Virus record (IMG/VR): IMGVR_UViG_3300024518_006146 | Coordinates: 1-24,925 of that record | Length of the DNA: 24,925 nucleotides | Source of the DNA: a virus | Reading direction: 5' to 3' (one strand) | Part shown: positions 2 to 19,053 of the stretch, one piece after another | Numbering within the stretch: position 1 is the first letter of the stretch | Layout: every line of letters starts with the position of its first letter | Notes under the pieces: model-generated | What the model was told of the DNA's origin: nothing | The model's database searches: none | The model's input: only the letters and a program-made list of their open reading frames with translations | Position numbers and translations under genes: made by a program

Positions 2-2782
2 TGGATATTCATTGATGCGGTTCGGCAGAAGAAACAGATCAAGCTGGACCCCAAGAATATCTACCATATGAAGCGGCCCACGATTGCCGATAACGACATG
101 TCCTGGGGCATGCCGATTATCCTTCCGGTGATCAAGGACGCCTACTGGTTGCAGATTCTCCGCAAGGCGAACGAGGCGATCTCCCTGGACCATATCGTGC
201 CGTGGCGCGTGCTCTTCCCGGCGGCCAACGCCGAGGTGAGCCCCTATGTGTCACAGAACCTCTCCACGTGGAAGACTAAGGTCGAGATTGAGGTAAAGAG
301 GTGGAGGCAGGACCCCAACCATATCAGCATAATGCCGATACCCATCGGAACTCAGAACTTTGGTGGTGACGCCAAGCTTCTCCAGGTCTGGCAGGAGGAG
401 AAGGTTCTCCAGCAGCAGATTGCGGGCGGCATCGGCGTGCCCATCGAACTAGTGTTCGGCGGGTTGTGTTTGGGCGCGGACTCTATCGTGACCACGGGTT
501 CTGGCATGATGACCATCAAGGAGATGGTCGAGAGCGATTTCGATGGCCAGGTGGCCACGCTTGAGGGAAAGAATGCCGTTATTGGCAGGTGGAAGACCGC
601 TCCCAAGCGGGCTCATAAAATCACCACGAGGTCCGGAGCCTTCCTGGAGGGCTCGGAAGATCACGAGTTTTACGCCTTGAGGCCCGATGGGGTCATGGGC
701 TTTAGAAAGCTGAAAGATCTTGTCCATGGTGATTACGTGGCCACGAAGCTGGGCGCGGAAATGTGGCCTCAAGAAGATCATGTTTCTGAGGATCGGGCGG
801 CGCTGTACGGCTATATGATCGCCGAAGGGCACATTCGGGAAAAGGGTTCCCAGTTCGCCAATACGGACCCCGACGTGATGGCCGATTTCGTGCAGAAATA
901 CGAGACGGAGTTTGGAAAGACGCTTAATATTTCGGAATCAAAGCCGACAGGCTTTGGCCGCAAGATAAAATATTCGGTCTCTATTTGTGGTGACGTGAAC
1001 CGAGAAATCATGGAGCACTGCACAATAGCGAAGTCGTATGGCAAGGAAATTCCCCAAAGCGTAAGGCGCTCGGGTCGCCGGGTCATGGCCGCTTTTATCA
1101 GGGCTTATTTCGAAGGCGATGGCGGGTCGTACAGCAACGAGCACCATGCCACTGTTTCGGCGACCACAACCTCTCGCAGGTTGGCCGACCAGGTTAATGT
1201 GGCCCTTGTCAATATGGGCATCTGGAACACCGTGTATGAGTCGGATGATACAAAGAACGGGGTATCAAAAAGACTCAAGTACACGATTCATATTCGTGGT
1301 GAGCATATTCTCCAGTTCCTTGACGATATAGGTTTCGTGTCGGACGCCAAGAAGCACGGGCACGAAAGCTGTAATCTGGAGGGCGGGACGTTTGACACTA
1401 CAGAACAACTTCCTTTCGTTAAAGAGCTTCTGGACGACTTCAGGGATCGACATTTTGATGGTTGTCGGAGTCGCTGGATAACTTTGCGCCCGAAGCTGAG
1501 ATTTGTGCAGGATGAGTACACTATCGAGGAGGCGGCGCAGGCTATATCGGCGTCGACGTATGTTATTGCCAAGCACGCATCCAGTGGAGTTATCAAGTCG
1601 CGAGTATATGTTTCCGGAAGGAAAGTCCGCGCCATATCCCGAGAGGACCTGGAGGCATATGTTGCCGAGTACGGCGTCAAGAAACGGGTAAAGATGCCGT
1701 GTTTCTATTGGGGCATGACGCGGGATAAGTCGAGCAGGGTTGACCTGAGCTACATCCAGGAGATTGAGCCTAAACTGGCCCAGCGTATCCAGGGCATTCT
1801 GGACACGCCGGAAGATGTGGTTTGGAATCGTGTCGAATCCATTGAGGATACAGGGCGGGACGAGCCCATGTATGACCTCTGCGTCGATCATGACCACAAT
1901 TTCGTGGCCAATGGCATGGTTGTTCACAACAGTTGGAGTGGGTCTTCGGTCTCGTTGCGCATCCTAGAAAATCACTTCATCCGTGACCGGGAGGAAATCG
2001 ACGGGTTCCTCAATCAATTCCTCATCCCGAATCTCCAGAGGTACTTCCGCCTGACCAAGATCAAGATCAAGCAGAAGAACTTCAAGATGGCCGACGACGT
2101 GCAGCAGAAGCAGCTGCTCATGGAAATGGTTCGGATGGGCAAGGTCAGCGACACGACGATGATGGAGGAAAACGATCTGGACTTCCAGTCGGAAGCTGCG
2201 AGACGCATGCAGGAACAGAATATCCAGATCGAGAACCAGCGCAAGCAGATGATACAGCAGGCGGAGGTTCAGGGCGCTGTAAGCGTGATAACCGCTCGCT
2301 ACCAGGCCATGGCTCAGGCCGAGGGCATGAAGATTCAGCAGCAGATAATGCCGCCTCCGCCCCCAATGCCGCCCGGGGCCCAGCAGGGAGCTCCAGGCCA
2401 GGGTGCGCAGCCAGGCGCTCCGGCACAACCCCAGGCTCCGGCACAACCCCAAGCCCCGGCACAACCGGGCGCTCCAGCGCAGCCGCAGGCTGGCCAGCCA
2501 ATGGCTATGGGCAAGGGTGGTCTCGTAGTGCCGTCCAACGGGGCTGGCGGCAAGGGCTACGTGCAAGACCAGGCCTCATTGGGAGTGGTGTCCAGCATGG
2601 TGCACGGCATTCAGCGCATGGATGAACCGGCAAGAGAGATGCTGCTTAGTGGGTTTGAGCAGCAGAATCCGACGTTGGCCAAGATGATCCGACAGCAGCT
2701 GAAGAAGGAGAGTAAGAACTCCATCGACATGCGTCCGCTGCCGGAACAAAAGCCTCCGCGTCGAACGAACTCTCCGATATAA
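2..2782 (+). CDS. Phage portal protein (5' partial), interrupted by an intein
   Basis: The reading frame is open to the left edge of the window, so the Met codon at 68 is internal and the true start lies upstream. Exteins read as a portal: a 'MPIPIG' segment near 340, 'GVPIELVFGGL' just before the intein, then 'SWSGSSVSLRILENHF' after it; the GGLSWSGS-VSLR block is, from family knowledge, a conserved portal motif. The portal forms the dodecameric DNA channel at the capsid vertex. An intein (467-1930) splits the motif between Leu and Ser. After splicing, 438 of the visible residues remain. The C-terminal part has a Gln/Met-rich, probably coiled stretch (about 2090-2350) and then a Pro/Ala/Gln-rich repeat tail ending in basic residues. 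The stop codon is followed 25 bases later by the first fibre gene. Confidence 0.85.
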   Translation, partial: WIFIDAVRQKKQIKLDPKNIYHMKRPTIADNDMSWGMPIILPVIKDAYWLQILRKANEAISLDHIVPWRVLFPAANAEVSPYVSQNLSTWKTKVEIEVKRWRQDPNHISIMPIPIGTQNFGGDAKLLQVWQEEKVLQQQIAGGIGVPIELVFGGLCLGADSIVTTGSGMMTIKEMVESDFDGQVATLEGKNAVIGRWKTAPKRAHKITTRSGAFLEGSEDHEFYALRPDGVMGFRKLKDLVHGDYVATKLGAEMWPQEDHVSEDRAALYGYMIAEGHIREKGSQFANTDPDVMADFVQKYETEFGKTLNISESKPTGFGRKIKYSVSICGDVNREIMEHCTIAKSYGKEIPQSVRRSGRRVMAAFIRAYFEGDGGSYSNEHHATVSATTTSRRLADQVNVALVNMGIWNTVYESDDTKNGVSKRLKYTIHIRGEHILQFLDDIGFVSDAKKHGHESCNLEGGTFDTTEQLPFVKELLDDFRDRHFDGCRSRWITLRPKLRFVQDEYTIEEAAQAISASTYVIAKHASSGVIKSRVYVSGRKVRAISREDLEAYVAEYGVKKRVKMPCFYWGMTRDKSSRVDLSYIQEIEPKLAQRIQGILDTPEDVVWNRVESIEDTGRDEPMYDLCVDHDHNFVANGMVVHNSWSGSSVSLRILENHFIRDREEIDGFLNQFLIPNLQRYFRLTKIKIKQKNFKMADDVQQKQLLMEMVRMGKVSDTTMMEENDLDFQSEAARRMQEQNIQIENQRKQMIQQAEVQGAVSVITARYQAMAQAEGMKIQQQIMPPPPPMPPGAQQGAPGQGAQPGAPAQPQAPAQPQAPAQPGAPAQPQAGQPMAMGKGGLVVPSNGAGGKGYVQDQASLGVVSSMVHGIQRMDEPAREMLLSGFEQQNPTLAKMIRQQLKKESKNSIDMRPLPEQKPPRRTNSPI
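467..1930 (+). mobile_element. Intein with LAGLIDADG homing endonuclease and HTH module in the portal gene
   Basis: This 488-residue intein starts at Cys (467-469, 'CLGADSIVTTGSG', block A) and ends with 'VANGMVVHN' (blocks F/G) before extein Ser at 1931. Block B shows 'GSEDHEF' with its His at 662-664. Two LAGLIDADG-type helices are visible: 'ALYGYMIAEGHI' (800-835) and 'AAFIRAYFEGDGG' (1088-1126); the acidic residues ending each motif are the expected metal ligands. Between the endonuclease and the C-terminal splicing block lies an excisionase/MerR-like helix-turn-helix, 'YTIEEAAQAIS' to 'ISREDLEAYV' (about 1514-1660), probably for target recognition. All residues needed for class 1 splicing (Cys1, block B His, His-Asn, +1 Ser) are present, so both splicing and homing appear intact. 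Confidence 0.9.
2417..2488 (+). repeat. Tandem 18-bp repeat in the portal C-terminal tail
   Basis: Four consecutive 18-bp units start at 2417, 2435, 2453 and 2471. The first two differ at only one base; the third and fourth are degenerate. Each encodes APAQPQ or APAQPG. The result is a flexible Pro/Ala/Gln tail on the portal protein. Such a repeat can change copy number by slippage. Confidence 0.85.
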
Positions 2783-9321: not shown

Positions 9322-10015
9322 CGTCTTCTTCGTTGTCAAGTTCAAACCTCCCGTCCGAGATCATGGCGTGGGCAGTTATCTTGTTGAACTGTTCCATCAT
9401 CGGCATGATGCTGAACATCCGCCAGAAGCGGCCCGGGACAGCGTGGGGCGGCGGCTCGCACTCGATCTTGTCGGGTTCCCAGAAGAGAAGGTCATCCAGT
9501 CTGCCATATGGATGCGCCAGATAGGCTCTGTCGTTGTCGTCGTCGTCGCCGGTTTTGGCGTTGTGTTCGACATAGATCATCAGGCCTTCGGAGTCATGGT
9601 CGAGCTTGTCCATGATCGTTGCGCCAGCCCGGATCGTTTTCATTGTGCGCTTGGCCAGCCATGAGTTCATGACAACCGCGTAGGAGTGGACCTCGGTGAT
9701 GGCCATCATGTTGGCGACCACACACGTCGCCAGGACAGGATGCCTGTTGATGAATTTAGTCAGGTTAACCCCAAGCACCTCTTCCTTGCCATCACGAGTG
9801 CAGTGGAGGTAGAATATGGGGTCGATCCATAGGGCCTTGTCGATGACCTGACGGGCGGACGCGTGAAGTTTTTCGGCCAGCTCCATGGCCGTGCGCTGCG
9901 CGGCGAAAATCGACTTGGCAGGATCATAGAATTTGGTTTCAATATTCAGCTGAAAGCACTTCCTGGCAAGTTCCTCGAAGTGTTCCGGCTGCATTTCAGG
10001 AGCTTCGTCCGACAT
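9230..10015 (-). CDS. Unknown 261-residue protein with acidic tail, first gene of the minus cassette
   Basis: It starts at ATG 10015 with a strong GAGGAGGA site. The body is helical and mixed, with 'LHASARQVIDKALWIDPIFY', 'FINRHPVLATCVVANMMAIT' and an acidic cluster 'GDDDDNDRAYLAHPYGRLDD'. Residues 224-261 form a disordered, very acidic tail ('DNEEDDEEEKGK...'). I recognise no family. Its start codon shares the sequence CATG with the start of the divergent MuF-like gene, so its promoter must lie within that gene. It leads a four-gene minus unit that ends at the 8437 terminator. Confidence 0.65.
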   Translation of the reverse strand: MSDEAPEMQPEHFEELARKCFQLNIETKFYDPAKSIFAAQRTAMELAEKLHASARQVIDKALWIDPIFYLHCTRDGKEEVLGVNLTKFINRHPVLATCVVANMMAITEVHSYAVVMNSWLAKRTMKTIRAGATIMDKLDHDSEGLMIYVEHNAKTGDDDDNDRAYLAHPYGRLDDLLFWEPDKIECEPPPHAVPGRFWRMFSIMPMMEQFNKITAHAMISDGRFELDNEEDDEEEKGKQTQGEASEREASAPDEKAPEENS

Positions 10016-12107
10016 GAGTTCCTCCTCAATAGGGTATCCAGATACGACTGATCCGCTTATACCACAAGGCGACCAATGGTTGACAGATCTCTTCTCCTAC
10101 GATGACGTGCATGAATTGCTGAAAAGCAGCATTTTAGATATGGATAACGTTGTTCAGGAGATCCACACCAGTAAAGAGGGGGGCGACGTAAGCTGGAAAG
10201 AAGCTGCCAGCCCCTACTATGAGAAGATGTGCCAGTGTGGCCACAACGCTATGTTGGCGGGTCAGCAGTACGCCAGCTGGTTCGACCCCGATCTGTCGAA
10301 GTCCGCATTCGACTTTGACTGGGACTACAGATCCGATATAGATCAGATGGCTGGTGGTCTGGGCATACCGGTCAGCAAGAAGAATGTCGACACCCTTCAT
10401 CGTGCGCTGGCAAACGGTGAACCCATCCCGACACGGGAGCTGGAGAAGGATTTCGACTACGAGAAGGCCCAAGACGTGGGCCGCACCGTCATGTTGAACA
10501 TCTACGCCAAGGCCGCCCTGCGGCGCTGGGATGGGGACGGGATAGTTCACTGCCGCCGGATCGAGATGCGGGACCGAAAGACCTGCCCAATTTGCCGGTC
10601 ACTTCACGGGAAGCAGTACGTTATTAGGGAAGTCCTCAATCAACTGTATCCTCAGTCTCACGATACGCATCCTCGGTGTCTACTCCCTGGCACCATGGTT
10701 AGTCCAGGGGGGCACGGGAACATACTTGGGGGCTTTGTCTCCACCTACGACGGCCCTATAGTCGAGCTTGTCCTGGCCGACGGGCGACGGCTCTCCGCGA
10801 CCATTAATCACATGCTCCTGACGCCAGAAGGGTTCCTCCGTGCGCGTCATCTTCGTAAGGGCGACCACGTACTCGGTCGCCCCCTTGGCCAATGGAATCG
10901 CACTGGTGTCCCAGATGATGACGACAAGCCAGCCCCTATTGAGGAGGTAGTCGGTTCTTTCGCGGAATCTGGCAGCATGGCGACCATGAGCGTGCCAGTG
11001 TCCGCCGAAAATTTCCACGGCGACGGCGTTTTCATGAGCGGCAATGTCGACATTGTAGGGGCCTATAGCGAGCTGGGGGGTGCACTGAACCCCGAGGATT
11101 TCGAGTTTCTCTCGAAACCTTCTTTCGGTGGGTGTTTGGATAGCCTTTCTCTCTCTCCCCTTGGCATGAGCGATAAGCTCTTCCAAGCTTTGCGGCTTGC
11201 CACGGACGGCGGCATGAGCCGCCTTCGTGAGTCCAAGTCGCTCCTCCTTGGAGAGCTTCGACCAGCGGATGGTGCAGGCGTCAGAAATAGATCGCCTAGC
11301 GACGCCATGCTGCTCCAGGATGCGATACACCGTGATTTTGTTGATGCCAAGACCTTTAGCAATCTCAAGGGCAGACTCGTTGGCGTAGCGCCGAATCACG
11401 GCATCATGGTCGATGAGCCCACGCTTGCGAGCTCCAGCCTTGCGCAGCCGCCGATTGATCGTATTTCGGCTGACGCCGAGAGAATCGGCCAGGTCCTTAG
11501 CTTTTTCCCCGGCGAGGTAGCGCCGCTTGAGATCGTCGAGATCAATCAGAATTCTTTTCATGGCCCAGTTTATGACCTCTGTGTTGGCTCCTCACTATAC
11601 TGGGCAGAAGGTATCGTGACAAGCAATTGTCGCGGGACTTTTTTACCCGTCCTCGATACAGCTACCACTTATAAGCCCCAGCGCCAAGAGTTTCCTGCGG
11701 GCATTAATTTCACCGTTGCGGGCAATGTGGCCGAGAATGTGCCCATGGAAATAAAGCCATGGCTGTATACGTTCATGCGCAGGTCCCCTGTCCCGCTCCA
11801 TGTTAAGTTCGACGATGCTCTCGACGCTGCCTATGAGTGGGATGGGTTTGAGGTGACAATCAGTCCGGAGGCGCTCAAGCATGAGGATCCGCGTGAGATT
11901 ATTCTGCGCTCCGTGGCAGACCAGATATGGCCTGAAGTTCAGCCGGAATTCAGCGAGTACAAGAATCTCGTAAAGGGCGGCCACGCAATCCCGGCTAAAA
12001 GTTGGGAGAACGATAAAGAGCTATTCGTGAATAACTACATTGCTTATCGCATGGGGCAGGATGAATACCCTCGATCCGTCGCCTGGCTCAAAAGGGTAGC
12101 GGGCTAA
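10014..12107 (+). CDS. MuF/SPP1 gp7-like head morphogenesis protein, interrupted by an intein
   Basis: The 697-residue precursor starts at ATG 10014 with AGGAG eleven bases upstream. The MuF-type core reads 'RKTCPICRSLHGK' (C191, C194) then 'THPR' and, after the intein, 'CRGTFLPV'; the paired Cys and 'HP-CRG' motif are the family's conserved end. These minor capsid proteins bind the portal side of the prohead and can be ejected with the DNA. After removal of intein residues 222-538 the product is 380 residues. The C-terminal part (from about 11840) ends 'NDKELFVNNYIAYRMG' then 'YPRSVAWLKRV', which recalls the end of lethal-factor-like zincins, but no HExxH is present. Its start overlaps the divergent minus gene. 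Confidence 0.8.
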   Translation: MSSSSIGYPDTTDPLIPQGDQWLTDLFSYDDVHELLKSSILDMDNVVQEIHTSKEGGDVSWKEAASPYYEKMCQCGHNAMLAGQQYASWFDPDLSKSAFDFDWDYRSDIDQMAGGLGIPVSKKNVDTLHRALANGEPIPTRELEKDFDYEKAQDVGRTVMLNIYAKAALRRWDGDGIVHCRRIEMRDRKTCPICRSLHGKQYVIREVLNQLYPQSHDTHPRCLLPGTMVSPGGHGNILGGFVSTYDGPIVELVLADGRRLSATINHMLLTPEGFLRARHLRKGDHVLGRPLGQWNRTGVPDDDDKPAPIEEVVGSFAESGSMATMSVPVSAENFHGDGVFMSGNVDIVGAYSELGGALNPEDFEFLSKPSFGGCLDSLSLSPLGMSDKLFQALRLATDGGMSRLRESKSLLLGELRPADGAGVRNRSPSDAMLLQDAIHRDFVDAKTFSNLKGRLVGVAPNHGIMVDEPTLASSSLAQPPIDRISADAERIGQVLSFFPGEVAPLEIVEINQNSFHGPVYDLCVGSSLYWAEGIVTSNCRGTFLPVLDTATTYKPQRQEFPAGINFTVAGNVAENVPMEIKPWLYTFMRRSPVPLHVKFDDALDAAYEWDGFEVTISPEALKHEDPREIILRSVADQIWPEVQPEFSEYKNLVKGGHAIPAKSWENDKELFVNNYIAYRMGQDEYPRSVAWLKRVAG
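10677..11627 (+). mobile_element. Intein in the MuF-like gene, carrying an antisense endonuclease gene
   Basis: This 317-residue intein runs from Cys222 ('CLLPGTMVSP', block A) to Asn538 ('AEGIVTSN', block G), before extein Cys539. Block B is 'SATINHMLLT' with T263 and H266. Block F is 'GPVYDLCVGSSLYWAEG'. The usual penultimate His is Ser here, a known variant. The insertion lies in the conserved 'HP-CRG' motif. No sense-strand LAGLIDADG or HNH motif is present; the space between the splicing blocks (about residues 290-515) is instead read on the other strand as a Vsr-like endonuclease. The sense frame has no stops over the whole region, so the precursor can be made and spliced. Confidence 0.85.
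10680..11561 (-). CDS. Antisense Vsr-like homing endonuclease nested in the MuF intein
   Basis: The 293-residue product lies entirely within the intein, on the other strand, in exact codon register with the sense frame. Its ATG is the reverse complement of a sense His codon and its TAG is the complement of the intein's second codon. Two helix-turn-helix modules occupy residues about 9-43 ('AKDLADSLGVSRNTINRRL') and 51-86 ('ALEIAKGLGINKITVYRIL'). A linker 'IRWSKLSKEER' typical of homing endonucleases follows. Residues 143-219 match the Vsr/EDxHD fold: E146 ('TPTERRF'), D172 ('YNVDIA'), E183 and 'GGHWH' (H188, H190), then 'NRGWLVVIIWD', as in Vsr 'LGWRVLIVWE'. The last 50 residues oppose the N-terminal splicing domain and are probably unconstrained. 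The ribosome site is weak (AGAGG, 13 bases upstream). Confidence 0.75.
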   Translation of the reverse strand: MKRILIDLDDLKRRYLAGEKAKDLADSLGVSRNTINRRLRKAGARKRGLIDHDAVIRRYANESALEIAKGLGINKITVYRILEQHGVARRSISDACTIRWSKLSKEERLGLTKAAHAAVRGKPQSLEELIAHAKGRERKAIQTPTERRFREKLEILGVQCTPQLAIGPYNVDIAAHENAVAVEIFGGHWHAHGRHAARFRERTDYLLNRGWLVVIIWDTSAIPLAKGATEYVVALTKMTRTEEPFWRQEHVINGRGEPSPVGQDKLDYRAVVGGDKAPKYVPVPPWTNHGARE

Positions 12108-12109
12108 AA

Positions 12110-12133
12110 GAGGGGGCGCTTGCGCACCCCCTC
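12110..12133 (-). terminator. Hairpin ending the minus-strand membrane-protein unit
   Basis: A 7-bp GC-rich stem (GAGGGGG with CCCCCTC, and two further inner pairs) is followed on the minus strand by TTTT (12109-12106). It lies 3' of the small gene at 12152-12292 and directly after the stop of the plus-strand MuF-like gene, at a convergent junction. The plus strand has no T run after the stem. Confidence 0.6.
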
Positions 12134-12151
12134 CTCCCCCCCCGCGCGCTC

Positions 12152-12292
12152 CTAGAGGTCGAACTCCCCCAGGAAATCATTCAAACCGTTCTTCGTGGCG
12201 CTATACGTCATCAGCGCCGTGATCGTGGCGGCGAGCCCCGCCAGGACGCCGACCGTGATTTTGAGCGTCGTGCTCAATTCCTTGTCGTTCAT
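12152..12292 (-). CDS. Small single-helix membrane protein
   Basis: This short reading frame encodes 46 residues from ATG 12292 (or 49 from ATG 12301, which sits directly on the AGGGGG site; the inner ATG has nine-base spacing). A single hydrophobic helix, 'LKITVGVLAGLAATITALMT', follows a short charged N-terminus; the C-terminus is acidic and ends 'FLGEFDL'. The size and topology fit a small phage membrane protein such as a holin-like or accessory peptide. It lies downstream of another membrane-anchored gene and upstream of a terminator hairpin, which supports it being expressed. Confidence 0.5.
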   Translation of the reverse strand: MNDKELSTTLKITVGVLAGLAATITALMTYSATKNGLNDFLGEFDL

Positions 12293-12370
12293 AAACTCCA
12301 TCCCCCTGGATCATTCGAGCCGCTCCTGCGAGACGGTCGATGGTGAATTGGACGCCTTCTGCCAGTTTGT

Positions 12371-12396
12371 GGGGGAGGGGTCCGAGCCCCTCCCCC
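12371..12396 (-). terminator. Perfect 10-bp hairpin between two minus-strand genes
   Basis: GGGGGAGGGG and CCCCTCCCCC pair perfectly around a six-base loop (TCCGAG on the plus strand). It lies between the 12429-12917 gene and the 12152-12292 gene. There is no T run on either side, so it may be a factor-dependent terminator, an attenuator or an mRNA 3'-end stabiliser. The rest of 12293-12428 holds no convincing gene. Confidence 0.5.
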
Positions 12397-12428
12397 AAAG
12401 GTCCGTCGAGGTCTTTTCGCTTCACCGC

Positions 12429-12917: not shown

Positions 12918-13028
12918 GGATACTTCCTCCTCTCGGGGTTGGAATTCGCGCAAACAACCCCAATGGCTGCAAGCGCTTATTCTTCAGTACTTTTCTTATA
13001 CCCGGATTGGATACCTAAATTTCCATTC

Positions 13029-13056
13029 TTGCTCGTATGGTCACAGAGGTTACAAT
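13029..13056 (+). promoter_or_regulatory. Possible promoter of the RNA polymerase gene
   Basis: TTGCTC (13029-13034), a 16-base spacer and TACAAT (13051-13056) lie 34 bases before the GTG start of the polymerase gene, within the 172-base divergent intergenic region 12918-13089. The -35 match is poor. No clear promoter for the divergent minus gene was found; TATAAG on that strand (about 12999-12994) lacks a good -35. Confidence 0.3.
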
Positions 13057-13089
13057 AAGGGGGTAAATACGCCTTTAGGAGGCCCCTCC

Positions 13090-16000
13090 GTGATCAACTG
13101 GCAAGAACAGGCGGCAAAGGCTCAGCAGGCCATAGCCAAGGGCATTCAGGCGATCTTCCCATACGAGGGCAAGATCAACCGCCTTGAGGCCAGCAAGATC
13201 TGGGTGGACCAGATAGCTGACGCCTCCACGGACTACGCCAAGCAGAAGGCGGTCAAGGGCGCTGGTCGCACGCTGTCGGCTCCGGTGTATGGTTCGTTTC
13301 GTCTTGTGAATAAAGCCACGGGAAAGGTCATAGACAGGACCGCCAAGATCAAGGTCACCAGCATACCGATCCCGACCACTCGCAGTAGCTACATTGTCAA
13401 CGGGTCAGAGTATCAGGTCCCCAATCAGCTTCGTCTTCGTCCGGGCGTGTACACCCGTGTCGGTAATGACGGGGACTTGCAGGCCCACGTCAATCTGGCC
13501 CGTGGTGGTGGCGGCGAGGGCGGCCTGAAAATATATTTGAATCCGAAGAACTGGATCTTTTATCTGCGGAGGGGCACCACAAACATAATGCTCTACCACG
13601 TTCTGATTGCGCTCGGGGTTTCCCGACAGCAGTTGGAAAAGGCGTGGGGCGAGGAAGTCGTAAAGGTCAACTCCGCAAAATCTTCGCAGAGCACAGAAAT
13701 CAAGAAGATGCATAAGGCCTTCATACAGGGTGACGTGCCCGCCGAAGAGGCCCAGATAATCGCTGAGATCGTTAAGTTCCTGAGCGGCACAGAGATCTCC
13801 GAGGAGACGACCAAGACAACCCTCGGTAAGTCCTTCAAGTCGTTCAGCCCGGATCTTATTCTCCGCACGACGGAAAAGCTGCTCGGAATTCTTAGGGGCA
13901 AGGAGAAGGTTGACGACCGGGATTCCTTGGAGTTCAAGGAGGTGCTCTCGGTCGAAGATTTCCTCGGCGAAAGGATCAGCAAGAAGGCCCATATTATTAA
14001 GGGCAAGCTAAGAAATAATATCGATAGGCAGACAGAGATCAGGCGCATACTTGTGCCCGGAATTTTCAGTCAGCACATTGATTCGTTCTTCACGTCCGGC
14101 GAGACCGGACTGTCCTCAACCCCCGAGCAGACCAATCCGATTCACATGGTACAGGAGGCGGACAAGGCGGTGCTCACGGGTATGGGCGGCATCACTAACG
14201 AGCACGCCATCACTACCGAGGCTAGAGCGGTGCACCCCTCGTCGCTGGGGTTCGTGGATCCCGTGAACACGCCGGAGAGTTCGCGCATCGGCACAACGCT
14301 GCACCTGCCGCTGGGTGTTGAGAAGAAGGGGCGCACGCTTCAAACCACTGTGTACGAGATCAAGACCGGCAAGACTATTAAAATCACCGCGCAGCAGGCG
14401 TCCGGCGCAGTCATATCGTTCAGGGATCAGTATGAGGCCAAGGGCAGCAAGCTCAAGGCCAAGTCGGCCAAGGTTAAGGCGTCCACTGGTGGCACCATAA
14501 AGATGGTACCGGCCAGCAGGGTCAAGTACGTCTTCCCGACCTCCCAGGCCACCTTTGACGTGTCCACCAATATGCTGCCCTTCCTGCCCTCCAATCAGGG
14601 CAACAGGGCCATGATGGCGGCCAAGCAGCTGTCACAGGCGCTGCCTCTGGTCAACAGGGAGTCGCCCCACGTGCAGGTTGTTTCCGAGGCGGGAAGGACT
14701 TTCGAGAGCGCAGTAGGCAGAGGCTTCTCCCATAAGTCGCCAACTAATGGCACCGTGTCCCGAGTGACAGACGATGCCATGTACGTCAAGGATGCTGGCG
14801 GCAAGTCGCACAAGGTTCCGATCTACAAGAACTTCCCCCTAAACAGCAAGACAGGATTCATAGACGCGGAGCATAAGGTCAAGACTGGAGACAAGGTCCG
14901 CAAGGGTCAGCTAATGGCCGACACCAACTTCACAAAGGGAGGCGATCTGGCGCTCGGCGTGAACGCCAAGGTCGCCTATATCCCCCACAAGGGATGGAAC
15001 TTCGAGGACGGTGTCACCATCAGCGAGAGCTTCGCGGACAAAGCGACCTCTCTGCACATGTATAAGCTTCACGCCGATATAGATAAAGACACTGTGATGG
15101 ATCTCAAGAGGTTCCGGGCGTACTACCCTGAGGCTGTTGACCTCGCAAAGGCGACCAAACTCGATGACACCGGAGTCGTGAAGAAGGGGCAGAATGTTCG
15201 CTATGGAGACACGGTTCTGGCCGTGCTTCGCAGGGAGGCCACTAGCCCTGAGGATGTTATCCTTTCCCGTATCCACAAGGCGTTCGTGAAGCCCTTCAAG
15301 AACCGGTCCGTCACCTGGGACGAAGAAGATGAGGGCGAGGTTGTCGAGGTAATCAGGACGCCCAAGAAGATAGAGGTGCATATCCGCACGAACGAGAAGG
15401 TTAAGATCGGGGATAAGTTCTCGTCTCGTTCGGCGAACAAGGGCACCGTGACAGCCATCATTCCTGACGCCGAGATGCCTCACACGAAAGACGGAGGCCC
15501 CATTGACTTGGCGCTGAACCCGACCTCCATCCCCAGCCGGATCAATCCAAGCCAGATCCTTGAGACTGCCGCTGGCAAGGTTGCGGAGAAGACGGGAAAG
15601 AAGTTCGTTGTGCGCAACTTCTCTGGAGAAGACTATCTCGACAGTGTGGAGAAGGCGGCCAAAAAGGCGGGCGTCTCCGACAAGGAGGACCTATACGATC
15701 CCGGCTCCGGCAAGACCATACCCGGCGTGAATGTCGGCAGTCAATACATGCTCAAGTTGGACCATCCAACTCGCAAGAAGTTCTCGGCCAGAGCGCAGGG
15801 CCCCGGGTACACATCGGAGCTTCAGCCGACACGAGGCAAGGCGTCTGGAGGGCAGGCTCTTGACCAGCTGACGCTCTATTCGATGCTTGCGCATGGCGCG
15901 AAGCACAACTTGCGCGAGATGGCCACCTACAAAGCTGAAAAGAACGACGAGGCGTGGCGCGCTCTCCAAACCGGGCAGGCTCTTCCCGCCCCACGGACCA

Positions 16001-19000
16001 CGTTCGCCTTTGAGAAATTCACGGACATGCTGCGCGGTTCAGGTGTGAATGTCACCAAGAACGGCAACGAGCTGGCGCTCGGCCCGATGACCGACAAGCA
16101 GGTCACGGAAATGACCAAGGGCGAAATAAAGAACAGCATGGTCGTTCGAGGCAAGGATCTTAAGCCGGAAAAGGGCGGGCTATTCGACCAGGGCCTCACC
16201 GGTGGCATCCAGGGTGAGAACTGGAATCACATTCAGCTCGCCGAGCCGATGCCCAATCCGGTATTCGAGACTGCCATAAAGTCCCTACTTGATATGCGCC
16301 AGAACATGTTCGACGACATTGTCGGTGGAAGGCGCTGGGTCGACAAGCAGGGGAAAATGCACATAAAGGCGGGCCCGGGGCGCGTCACGGGCGGCGCGGG
16401 CATCCAGATGCTGCTTGGCAAGGTCGACATGAAGGCCCTGGCCGAGAAGCTTGAGTTGACAGCCAAAAAGAAGAAGGGGGCCGACCTCGACAAGATCAAC
16501 AAGAAGCTTAGGTACATCAAGGCCCTACAGAAAAACAACCTGAAGCCGACCGATTACGTTGTAACCAAGGTCCCGGTGATCCCTGCGAAGCTTCGCCCTG
16601 TGTACGGGTTGGCTGATGGCAGCCTTGACGTTACTGAGGTTAACCACCTGTATCGCGACCTGATCGAGGTGAACAACCACCAGAAAGACTTCAACAAGAT
16701 GGGCCTGCCCGACGAGGACAAGGCCAGGCTCCGCGAGAACACCTATAAGGGCATGAAGGCCGTTGCCGGGCTGCACCCCTCCATTGACGGGCGCAACAGG
16801 CGCGGGCTTATCGAGCAGATTAAGGGGCCCAGGAACAAGGAAGGCTTCTTCCAGAATCGCATCATGAGCCGGAGACAGGAGTTCACGGGTCGCTCAACGG
16901 TCACGCCTGACCCCGAGCTGGGCCTGGATGAGATCTCTGTGCCCGAGGATATGGCCTGGAAGAATTACCAGCCGTTTGTGGTGAGAGAGCTGGTGCGCCA
17001 GGGGTACAGCCCCTTGGATGCACGAGAGCAGATGGAGAAGAAGACGCCGCTCGCCAAGAGGGCGCTACAGGTCGCCATGGAAAACCGTCCGGTGATAATC
17101 AATCGGGCCCCGTCGCTCCATAAGTTCAACGCGCTGTCGTTCAAGCCGCAGCTGACGAAGGGCAAGGCGATAAAGGTAAACCCCCTGATAGTGAAGGGCT
17201 ACAACATGGACTTTGACGGCGACACCGCCTCGGTCCACGTCCCCATCACTGAAGATGCCCGCCAGGAGTCTTTCGGCCTGCTGCCGAGTAATAACCTCTG
17301 GGGGCCTCGTCAGGGCGAGCTTATGCATCACCCTTCTCTTGAGGCTGTTGCCGGGCTGTATATGCATACGGTGACAAAGAAGGGGCGAGACGAGATAAAT
17401 GCACTCTTGCCCAAGGGCTTCAAGATAAGCAAGCCCATGACCGAGAAGAGCATGATGAAGGTGTTGTCCGAGATTGGGCGCAAGAATAAGCCTGAGTTCG
17501 TGAGGGTTGTGAACAAGCTAAAGAGTATTGGAAACCGAGAGTCCTTCCAGCGCGGCCTGACCATCGGCCTCGAAGATCTAAAGATGGATCAGAAGGCCAA
17601 GTCTCGCATCCTTGGCGAGGCTGACAAGGAGGCAAAGAAGGGCGGCAACACGGACAAGGCTATTGTGAACGCCTACATGAAGGCCAGCAAGAAGCTGGAC
17701 AATCTTATCGCCACGGACCCCAAGCTCAAGGCCAACGGGTTCCGCATCATGATGGACTCCGGGGCGAAGGGCAATGGCTCCCAGATTCGTCAAATCCTGG
17801 CCGCCCCGATGCTAGTGCAGGACATTTCTGGTCGCACCGTGCCGGTGCCGATCAAGAAGGCGTATGCCCAGGGCCTGGACATGGGAGACTACTGGGCCTC
17901 CATGTCGGGGGCTAGAAAGGGCATGATTGACCGGGCGCTGCAAACGGCTGAGCCTGGCGCGCTGGCCAAATCCATCCTGAACTCAACCGTCAGCGAGGTT
18001 GTAGGTAAGCCCGACTGCGGCACGCTCAAGGGCGTGGACACGCTGGTGACCGACCCCGAGATCGCGGACCGATTCCTCGCCAGGAACTTGGCTGGAGTGG
18101 GCAGGCGCAACGAACTTGTCACCCACCAGATGCTCAGGAAAGCCAAGAGGAAGCGCCTCAAGATGCTTCCGGTGCGCTCACCCATGACGTGTCGGCTATC
18201 ACAGGGCGTCTGCCAGAAGTGCTACGGGATAGACGAGAAGGGCCGAGCGCCCGAGATCGGGACCAACGTTGGCGTGATCGCCGGGCAAGCCATTAGCGAA
18301 CGTGCCACCCAGCTTACGATGCGCACCTTCCACACTGGATCGGCTGCGGGCAGCGGAAGTGGTGGCGTAACCGCCGGATTTCAGCGCGTCAAAGAGCTCA
18401 TGGAAATGCCGAAGAAACTCAGGAATCAGGCGACTCTGGCAAGGGTGGCTGGCCGGATAACAGCCGTGAGAAACTCGCCCATTGGTGGATGGGATGTGTT
18501 TATTGGTACCGATAAGCACCACGTCCCAAAATCCCGCGCGCTGCTCGTAAAGCGGGGCGACACCGTGAAGCAGGGCCAGTCCATTAGTGACGGGGCCGTC
18601 AGCCCTCAGGAGCTGCTCCAGCTGCGCGGCATGCGCCACACGCAGGACTATCTGGTCGATCAGGTCGTGAAAGAATATGGAGGCCAGGGGATCAACATCA
18701 AGAGGAAGCTGGTCGAGACCGCCATCAGGCCCCTCACGAATCGCGTGGTGGTTACCGACACGGGCGGGCATCCCACGCTGGTCACCGGGGACAACACCAC
18801 CTCGGGCATGGTTGAGGACTGGAACGAGAAGCAGCTCAACCCCAACAAGCAAATCAAATTCGACCCGATGCTTAGAGGAATCAATACCAGGCCACTGGTC
18901 GGTCAGGATTGGCTGTCTAGGCTCAACTTCCAGAAGCTCCAGGACACGATACAGGAGGGCGCGGGGCAGGGCTGGAAGAGCGACATAGCTTCGCCGTTTG

Positions 19001-19053
19001 CCCCCCTGGCCTCGTACGCCTACGGCCCGACAGTCGGTTACGAGAAGTTTTAG
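13090..19053 (+). CDS. Multisubunit-type RNA polymerase, beta and beta' fused in one chain
   Basis: The GTG start at 13090 has a perfect AGGAGG seven bases upstream; the frame is open further upstream but that stretch is antisense to another gene. The 1987-residue product carries beta landmarks in order: 'VDPVNTPESSRIG' (389 on), 'LPFLPSNQGNRAMMAAKQL', 'VAYIPHKGWNFEDGVTISE', 'IGDKFSSRSANKG' (773-785) and 'LDHPTRKKFSAR'. After a linker (about 945-1020), beta' begins at 'DLKPEKGGLFDQG' without the first zinc ribbon. Next come 'VPVIPAKLRPV', 'RPVIINRAPSLHKF', catalytic NMDFDGD (1372-1378; D1374, D1376, D1378), the bridge helix and trigger loop around 'GARKGMIDRALQTAEPG' (from 1607), the second zinc site (C1643, C1701, C1708, C1711) and 'QLTMRTFHTG' (1741). 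No large lineage-specific insertions are seen. It should transcribe phage genes; no alpha, omega or sigma gene is in the window. Confidence 0.95.
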   Translation: MINWQEQAAKAQQAIAKGIQAIFPYEGKINRLEASKIWVDQIADASTDYAKQKAVKGAGRTLSAPVYGSFRLVNKATGKVIDRTAKIKVTSIPIPTTRSSYIVNGSEYQVPNQLRLRPGVYTRVGNDGDLQAHVNLARGGGGEGGLKIYLNPKNWIFYLRRGTTNIMLYHVLIALGVSRQQLEKAWGEEVVKVNSAKSSQSTEIKKMHKAFIQGDVPAEEAQIIAEIVKFLSGTEISEETTKTTLGKSFKSFSPDLILRTTEKLLGILRGKEKVDDRDSLEFKEVLSVEDFLGERISKKAHIIKGKLRNNIDRQTEIRRILVPGIFSQHIDSFFTSGETGLSSTPEQTNPIHMVQEADKAVLTGMGGITNEHAITTEARAVHPSSLGFVDPVNTPESSRIGTTLHLPLGVEKKGRTLQTTVYEIKTGKTIKITAQQASGAVISFRDQYEAKGSKLKAKSAKVKASTGGTIKMVPASRVKYVFPTSQATFDVSTNMLPFLPSNQGNRAMMAAKQLSQALPLVNRESPHVQVVSEAGRTFESAVGRGFSHKSPTNGTVSRVTDDAMYVKDAGGKSHKVPIYKNFPLNSKTGFIDAEHKVKTGDKVRKGQLMADTNFTKGGDLALGVNAKVAYIPHKGWNFEDGVTISESFADKATSLHMYKLHADIDKDTVMDLKRFRAYYPEAVDLAKATKLDDTGVVKKGQNVRYGDTVLAVLRREATSPEDVILSRIHKAFVKPFKNRSVTWDEEDEGEVVEVIRTPKKIEVHIRTNEKVKIGDKFSSRSANKGTVTAIIPDAEMPHTKDGGPIDLALNPTSIPSRINPSQILETAAGKVAEKTGKKFVVRNFSGEDYLDSVEKAAKKAGVSDKEDLYDPGSGKTIPGVNVGSQYMLKLDHPTRKKFSARAQGPGYTSELQPTRGKASGGQALDQLTLYSMLAHGAKHNLREMATYKAEKNDEAWRALQTGQALPAPRTTFAFEKFTDMLRGSGVNVTKNGNELALGPMTDKQVTEMTKGEIKNSMVVRGKDLKPEKGGLFDQGLTGGIQGENWNHIQLAEPMPNPVFETAIKSLLDMRQNMFDDIVGGRRWVDKQGKMHIKAGPGRVTGGAGIQMLLGKVDMKALAEKLELTAKKKKGADLDKINKKLRYIKALQKNNLKPTDYVVTKVPVIPAKLRPVYGLADGSLDVTEVNHLYRDLIEVNNHQKDFNKMGLPDEDKARLRENTYKGMKAVAGLHPSIDGRNRRGLIEQIKGPRNKEGFFQNRIMSRRQEFTGRSTVTPDPELGLDEISVPEDMAWKNYQPFVVRELVRQGYSPLDAREQMEKKTPLAKRALQVAMENRPVIINRAPSLHKFNALSFKPQLTKGKAIKVNPLIVKGYNMDFDGDTASVHVPITEDARQESFGLLPSNNLWGPRQGELMHHPSLEAVAGLYMHTVTKKGRDEINALLPKGFKISKPMTEKSMMKVLSEIGRKNKPEFVRVVNKLKSIGNRESFQRGLTIGLEDLKMDQKAKSRILGEADKEAKKGGNTDKAIVNAYMKASKKLDNLIATDPKLKANGFRIMMDSGAKGNGSQIRQILAAPMLVQDISGRTVPVPIKKAYAQGLDMGDYWASMSGARKGMIDRALQTAEPGALAKSILNSTVSEVVGKPDCGTLKGVDTLVTDPEIADRFLARNLAGVGRRNELVTHQMLRKAKRKRLKMLPVRSPMTCRLSQGVCQKCYGIDEKGRAPEIGTNVGVIAGQAISERATQLTMRTFHTGSAAGSGSGGVTAGFQRVKELMEMPKKLRNQATLARVAGRITAVRNSPIGGWDVFIGTDKHHVPKSRALLVKRGDTVKQGQSISDGAVSPQELLQLRGMRHTQDYLVDQVVKEYGGQGINIKRKLVETAIRPLTNRVVVTDTGGHPTLVTGDNTTSGMVEDWNEKQLNPNKQIKFDPMLRGINTRPLVGQDWLSRLNFQKLQDTIQEGAGQGWKSDIASPFAPLASYAYGPTVGYEKF

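Follow-up and report, generated by a model that had tools for sequence, protein, structure and literature searches.

When an intein has a homing nuclease, the nuclease is normally encoded in frame with it. Members of the EDxHD nuclease group are reportedly found in group I introns, between the halves of split inteins, or as free-standing genes, and in phages a Vsr-like nuclease is said to occupy the intein nuclease site of fractured genes with split inteins. Homing genes have also been described on the antisense strand of nuclear group I introns, with their own expression (PMC9548176). The ShiLan domain of a phage methylase comes with a hidden HNH endonuclease that lies out of frame, in the third frame relative to its host gene, with no intein blocks and no detectable ribosome-binding site (PMC11855218).

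The locus described here lies in a viral window of 24,925 nucleotides (the whole stretch of DNA analysed), where a predicted EDxHD/Vsr-like homing endonuclease gene is placed antisense inside the intein of a MuF-like gene. With I-Bth0305I and the EDxHD group it shares the predicted catalytic fold, extended DNA-binding modules and a phage setting; unlike the known members, it is antisense inside a continuous intein, and its similarity to the I-Bth0305I catalytic domain (3r3p) is weak (E 0.02). As in canonical bifunctional inteins of the LAGLIDADG type, the nuclease is coded between blocks B and F; in those inteins, however, it is in frame, whereas that of the MuF intein is antisense, unfused and predicted to be transcribed separately. 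The window itself contains a canonical example at 2-2782 (+), in a portal-like protein (splicing domain, 4e-20; in-frame LAGLIDADG_3, 3e-17), and this single phage combines both intein architectures, canonical in-frame and antisense.

The group I introns are likewise self-splicing elements whose opposite strand bears a homing gene, but they splice as RNA and need no protein reading, whereas both strands of the MuF intein are protein-coding. A group I intron with an antisense homing gene is ruled out at the present locus by the lack of any Rfam match at E ≤ 1 within 9800-12400. In fractured genes the host gene and the intein are in two pieces, in contrast to the uninterrupted MuF sense frame. 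The ShiLan text makes no mention of the opposite strand, whereas the MuF case is antisense, intein-internal and provided with a Shine-Dalgarno sequence and a promoter. Both the antisense homing genes of group I introns and ShiLan are precedents in idea. No report of an antisense nuclease within an intein was found in the literature searched, which did not cover a 2025 preprint on actinobacteriophage inteins of "non-canonical architecture" (Gosselin et al., 10.1101/2025.01.02.630785; cited in PMC11855218); that preprint may already describe the antisense arrangement in actinophages, including the Gordonia cases considered below. Within the literature covered, the embedding of the promoter and Shine-Dalgarno sequence and the dual-coding analysis appear to be new.

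The MuF intein and the opposing nuclease gene

The coding features of the locus are the following.

10014-12107 (+): MuF-like minor capsid (head morphogenesis) gene, interrupted by an intein (TIGR01641, 2e-9; Phage_Mu_F, 1e-4; Intein_splicing, PF14890)
10677-11627 (+): intein of 317 residues, with C1, block B TINH, block F GPVYDL and C-terminus TSN (PF14890, 2.5e-5; AlphaFold2 model)
10800-10820 (+): intein block B (TINHMLL), facing the C-terminal tail of the nuclease, which varies like sense-coding sequence
11013-11027 (+): FHGDG in the sense frame; the facing antisense residues, 179-183, include the catalytic E183; both strands constrained
10680-11561 (-): predicted antisense homing endonuclease gene, 293 residues, ATG at 11561 (open reading frame, domains, fold, register)
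11277-11561 (-): tandem helix-turn-helix (HTH) modules, residues 1-95 (HTH_23, HTH_7 and Cbp1 profile; AlphaFold2 helices)
10887-11144 (-): predicted Vsr/EDxHD-type nuclease core, residues 140-225, with E146, D172, E183, H188, H190 and R202 (homologs, AlphaFold2, fold search)

The sense strand encodes a MuF protein of 697 residues, for which the Phage_Mu_F match (1e-4) falls below the curated cut-off. A whole-protein search of IMG/VR returned zero matches, the protein probably being too divergent. The intein span assigned in the first-pass annotation coincides exactly with the boundaries found here, from C1 (10677-10679) to N317 (11625-11627), and is followed by Cys as the C+1 residue (11628); with the intein residues removed in silico, the predicted spliced junction HPR-C-RGTFLP is the usual MuF motif. 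Intact splicing blocks had also been claimed, and this stands for C1 (within the N-terminus CLLPGT), the T and H of block B, the terminal Asn and the C+1 nucleophile; C1, H45 and N317 are invariant among 41 intein homologs. The claim does not extend to the penultimate residue, which is Ser in the window instead of the usual His. A penultimate His is common in inteins, not universal, and across 66 loci this residue is Ser or Lys in 49 and His or Arg in 17.

The AlphaFold2 model of the intein is confident at residues 1-75 and 270-317 and of low confidence over 131-160 and 195-258. Inteins are its best PDB matches, indicating a HINT fold, and the low-confidence middle would fit a passenger loop, much of it largely unstructured. 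Nuclease domains were found solely in the antisense frame, in line with the earlier description of an intein devoid of in-frame endonuclease.

The antisense gene starts 66 nt from the 3' edge of the intein and its stop codon faces intein codon 2, exactly as first described, which places it entirely inside the intein; its codons sit in exact register opposite the sense codons. Its product matches HTH_23 (3e-8), the MTES_1575 nuclease fold (2e-7), DUF559 (4e-4) and Vsr (7e-4), the MTES_1575 and Vsr matches lying below the curated Pfam cut-offs and that of DUF559 just above. Across 38 nuclease homologs, E146, D172, E183, the FGGHWH motif and R202 are near-invariant. The AlphaFold2 model of the protein has a mean pLDDT of 87.7, and a Foldseek search of the PDB ranked the I-Bth0305I catalytic domain (3r3p, probability 1.00) first, followed by Vsr (0.99), with modest E-values (3e-3) despite the probability of 1.00; the profile search agrees. 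In the profile search of the PDB, 3hrl was matched at 5e-5 and 3r3p weakly, as given above, and phmmer with the single nuclease sequence gave no meaningful PDB match. All five residues originally proposed (E146, D172, E183, H188 and H190) are present, and the nuclease prediction withstood the profile and structure checks that the first-pass annotation had called for. The assignment as a predicted EDxHD/Vsr-like homing endonuclease is supported.

Selection on both frames and the embedded start signals

In this register, position 3 of the antisense codon opposes position 1 of the sense codon. Over the HTH, linker and nuclease regions, antisense position 3 is the most variable and antisense identity exceeds sense identity; the nuclease tail, which faces blocks A and B, shows the reverse, sense-coding polarity. 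When the window is compared with locus L061, identity in the exteins is 32-33% for the sense and 13-17% for the antisense translation, against 31% and 55%, respectively, in the middle of the intein. A comparison of celemicas with TS6, both Jersey phages, gave 35 antisense versus 76 sense amino-acid changes in the core of the nuclease gene. By sense codon position, the differences in the core number 64 (position 1), 17 (position 2) and 28 (position 3); in the exteins, position 3 dominates. The antisense codons TTA, CTA and TCA, which create sense stops, occur 10 times in 45 antisense genes versus 255.6 expected, and no sense stop was counted within the matched overlap.

At antisense residues 179-182, adjoining the catalytic E183, there is true dual coding: conservation at synonymous sites is 2.6-3.4 times that expected, and in the HGDG motif read from the sense strand of homologs D is kept in 83/83, G in 79/83 and H in 78/83. 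LHGDG is a conserved, sense-selected motif of the intein middle in homologs, opposite the nuclease active site. That the antisense match results from sense conservation is ruled out over the HTH and nuclease regions and accepted for the C-terminal tail and residues 179-182. At the level of sequence comparison, both frames are open and under selection, which acts on the antisense frame in the HTH and nuclease regions and on the sense frame in the splicing blocks; this is the outcome of the two-strand substitution comparison that had been proposed at the outset.

The last 22 codons of the intein house, through biased codon choice, an antisense sigma-70 promoter, a Shine-Dalgarno sequence and a start codon. 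In the window they are as follows.

11617-11622 (-): -35 hexamer TTGTCA, facing intein V-T-S (a perfect TTGACA in many relatives)
11594-11599 (-): -10 hexamer TATAGT, spacer of 17, facing intein S-L-Y (promoter scan)
11575-11580 (-): Shine-Dalgarno-like AGAGGT, 13 nt ahead of the ATG, facing block F D-L-C (sequence)

In the family, block F reads GHVYDLQ, and its reverse strand, TTGGAGGTCATAAACATG, contains a start codon preceded by a Shine-Dalgarno sequence. In this block, Leu is encoded by CTC in 54/59 cases (11.2 expected, P=2e-33) and His by CAT in 44/49 (22 expected, P=6e-11), although the loci share ancestry and the P values therefore overstate independence. The same preference was found in 41 other loci (CTC in 37/37, CAT in 30/35). 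The promoter lies opposite SLYIANGVLSSN, just upstream of the Shine-Dalgarno sequence and start, and its -10 usually ends 26 nt ahead of the start codon. A perfect TTGACA-N17-TATAAT is present in 23 of the 66 loci versus 0.04 expected when the codons are redrawn synonymously, and a match of at least 10/12 bases in 42 of the 66 versus 2.5 expected under the same recoding; among the other loci, 16/41 reach this level (2.1 expected). Such matches occur in 42 of the 49 loci with penultimate Ser or Lys and in none of the 17 with His or Arg, an association that could partly reflect shared ancestry.

The signals of the window are weaker than the best of the family. Its promoter, TTGTCA-N17-TATAGT (11622-11594), matches 10/12 bases and is one of five sites of such quality on both strands of the whole window. 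The canonical start is lost because the block F His is Pro, and the ATG is displaced downstream by two codons, to 13 nt from the Shine-Dalgarno sequence; in other loci that lack the canonical His, an upstream CAT is used likewise (8/8). As a control, the canonical intein of the window (2-2782) gave a promoter match of 7/12 and no antisense signal.

Relatives, empty sites and other antisense nucleases

Nuclease searches of IMG/VR returned 51 relatives and then 349 (80 kept), and in cultured phages 118-126 records matched, mostly within genes whose annotation is MuF or head morphogenesis protein. All 57 loci of the first set have a stop-free sense frame across the gene, always in the one register, while their other two sense frames contain 3-34 stops. 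Of 76 further entries, among them some re-fetched contigs, 75 likewise have this frame open; the loci of both sets (133 in total) were chosen by nuclease homology or annotation. The lone exception (L060, a Chloroflexota MAG) is a free-standing NUMOD-type relative of the nuclease. Ten of 11 additional phage loci are nested and one, in Acinetobacter phage IME285 (L150), is free-standing; these two free-standing relatives are possible sources of the antisense gene.

When the search was started from the intein (the 33 residues at its C-terminus), the nuclease gene was present antisense in 79 of 80 loci, and the 80th (L218) carried an antisense HNH gene at 1755-2306 (-) (HNH_5, 1e-7) in a different register; the association of nuclease and intein in this MuF intein class is therefore nearly obligatory. 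L218 keeps a leftover TTGACA, an apparent swap of one nuclease for another. Regular breakage of the antisense frame in homologs, which the first-pass annotation had named as evidence against its reading, was not what this set displayed: in 65 of the 69 distinct loci the antisense frame stays open for 230 codons or more, and two of the remaining four end at a contig edge. Antisense homologs with conserved catalytic residues span genomes of 35-70% GC.

In the inspected records of Salmonella Jersey-like, Escherichia Kagunavirus and Gordonia phages the full antisense gene is unannotated, and for Escherichia phage Snoke (L145) and vB-Eco-KMB36 (L147) GenBank annotates the intein without it. One locus (L002) has a second, upstream MuF intein site and its gene seems to hold two inteins; in Mycobacterium phage Sejanus (L143) it is this upstream site that holds the antisense nuclease.

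The element is precisely inserted, and close relatives have intein-free alleles. Among Jersey-like phages, 58 records match at least 80% of the gene and many others match as two flanking pieces only. The occupied allele reads PPAHPN|C...HN|CRSTTAP and the empty one PPAHPNCRSTTAP, the sole difference being the intein; such exact empty alleles fit scarless removal, as judged from the sequences. Gordonia phages display the same polymorphism of occupied and empty sites. In celemicas and dunkel the 816-nt intein is 100% identical, with 98% identity in the C-extein and 72% in the N-extein, a pattern as expected for homing with conversion of the flank and pointing to transfer between lineages.

In Gordonia phages Lennon, Sitar and Barsten, this MuF site is occupied by another intein, whose antisense strand encodes an unrelated LAGLIDADG-like protein (YVAAFIDGEG by eye; phrog_5046, 2e-15); antisense nesting therefore seems to have more than one origin. 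The antisense open reading frame of Lennon (L141) starts near 1875, and its product, which Pfam did not recognise and PHROG 5046 matched, is related to endonucleases of Caulobacter phage CcrRogue and cyanophage PP.

A probable two-strand mobile intein and its alternatives

The best explanation of these observations, with a probability of about 0.88, is a two-strand mobile intein that is spread by the antisense nuclease and hidden by splicing of the sense product. For transcription, translation, cleavage, timing and splicing, we infer the following course. The sense product would be made with MuF, its intein fold formed from the outer parts (about residues 1-75 and 270-317), with the middle as passenger. 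On phage entry, the antisense gene would be transcribed by host RNA polymerase, separately from the late MuF operon. The sigma-70 type of the promoter suggests the host enzyme, and independence could matter because the phage of the window encodes a fused beta-beta' RNA polymerase (a single very long open reading frame at about 13012-19053 (+), with Rpb2 and then Rpb1 domains). In co-infecting phages whose MuF allele lacks the intein, the nuclease would cut that allele at the conserved HPxC|RC codons, repair of the break would copy the whole element plus some flanking extein, and protein splicing would later restore MuF.

It is unlikely that the antisense protein is made mainly for another role, as a MuF repressor, a regulator acting through antisense RNA, or an agent of general damage to host or competitor DNA. 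Homing endonucleases can double as repressors, as I-TevI does, the tandem HTH domains would suit such a function, and a strong promoter opposing a late gene would yield antisense RNA over MuF. However, the strict tie to one intein class, the exact empty alleles and the co-conversion-like C-extein tract are what homing predicts, and regulation could be an added role of the nuclease.

Decay of a former homing gene, with the intein persisting by splicing alone, is distinctly improbable. Stops do interrupt the antisense gene in a few copies (L077, L081, L105, L107), and the Jersey and Gordonia copies, with an altered FGGHWH motif, may be decayed or divergent; against this, the frame and the catalytic set are intact in the window and in most IMG/VR loci, and the start signals are still under selection.

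A split or inactive intein, with an antisense gene that does no more than break up MuF in the manner of "fractured" genes, has very little probability. The penultimate Ser and the predicted disorder in the middle of the sense product would be compatible with a defective intein, but no nested locus has a break in its sense frame; C1, block B, the terminal Asn and the C+1 Cys are kept; and the insert lies in the conserved HPxC|RC motif of a head protein that probably needs it removed. A fractured gene with a split intein is ruled out by the unbroken sense gene.

That the antisense frame is a chance or codon-bias shadow of MuF, with the sense intein alone real, is extremely improbable: GC-rich genes do open in-register antisense frames easily, and length is a weak argument, as the first-pass annotation had cautioned (P about 0.02 for an equally long open in-register frame under extein codon usage), but this reading is contradicted by the homologous proteins with conserved catalytic residues in genomes of 35-70% GC, the codon-position pattern with its excess of antisense over sense identity, the depletion of stop codons, the free-standing relatives, and the promoter, Shine-Dalgarno and start codon bias on the antisense strand.

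A wider reading, which we consider probable when all its parts are taken jointly, is that two-strand inteins are widespread, that their splicing block has been recoded, in its codons and by change of the penultimate His to Ser or Lys, for a sigma-70 promoter, a Shine-Dalgarno sequence and a start, that at least three nuclease families lie antisense in MuF inteins, and that this would be a general, unrecognised route of nucleases into inteins.

A separate nuclease gene on the opposite strand would decouple the timing of the nuclease from that of the late structural gene and, if separately controlled, would make the element independent of the transcription programme of its host phage. The locus is also an unusually clear case of a long, conserved antisense protein overlap in phages, in which both frames are testable by comparison. 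The possible trade-off between a catalytic residue of the intein and a promoter hexamer would be directly testable.
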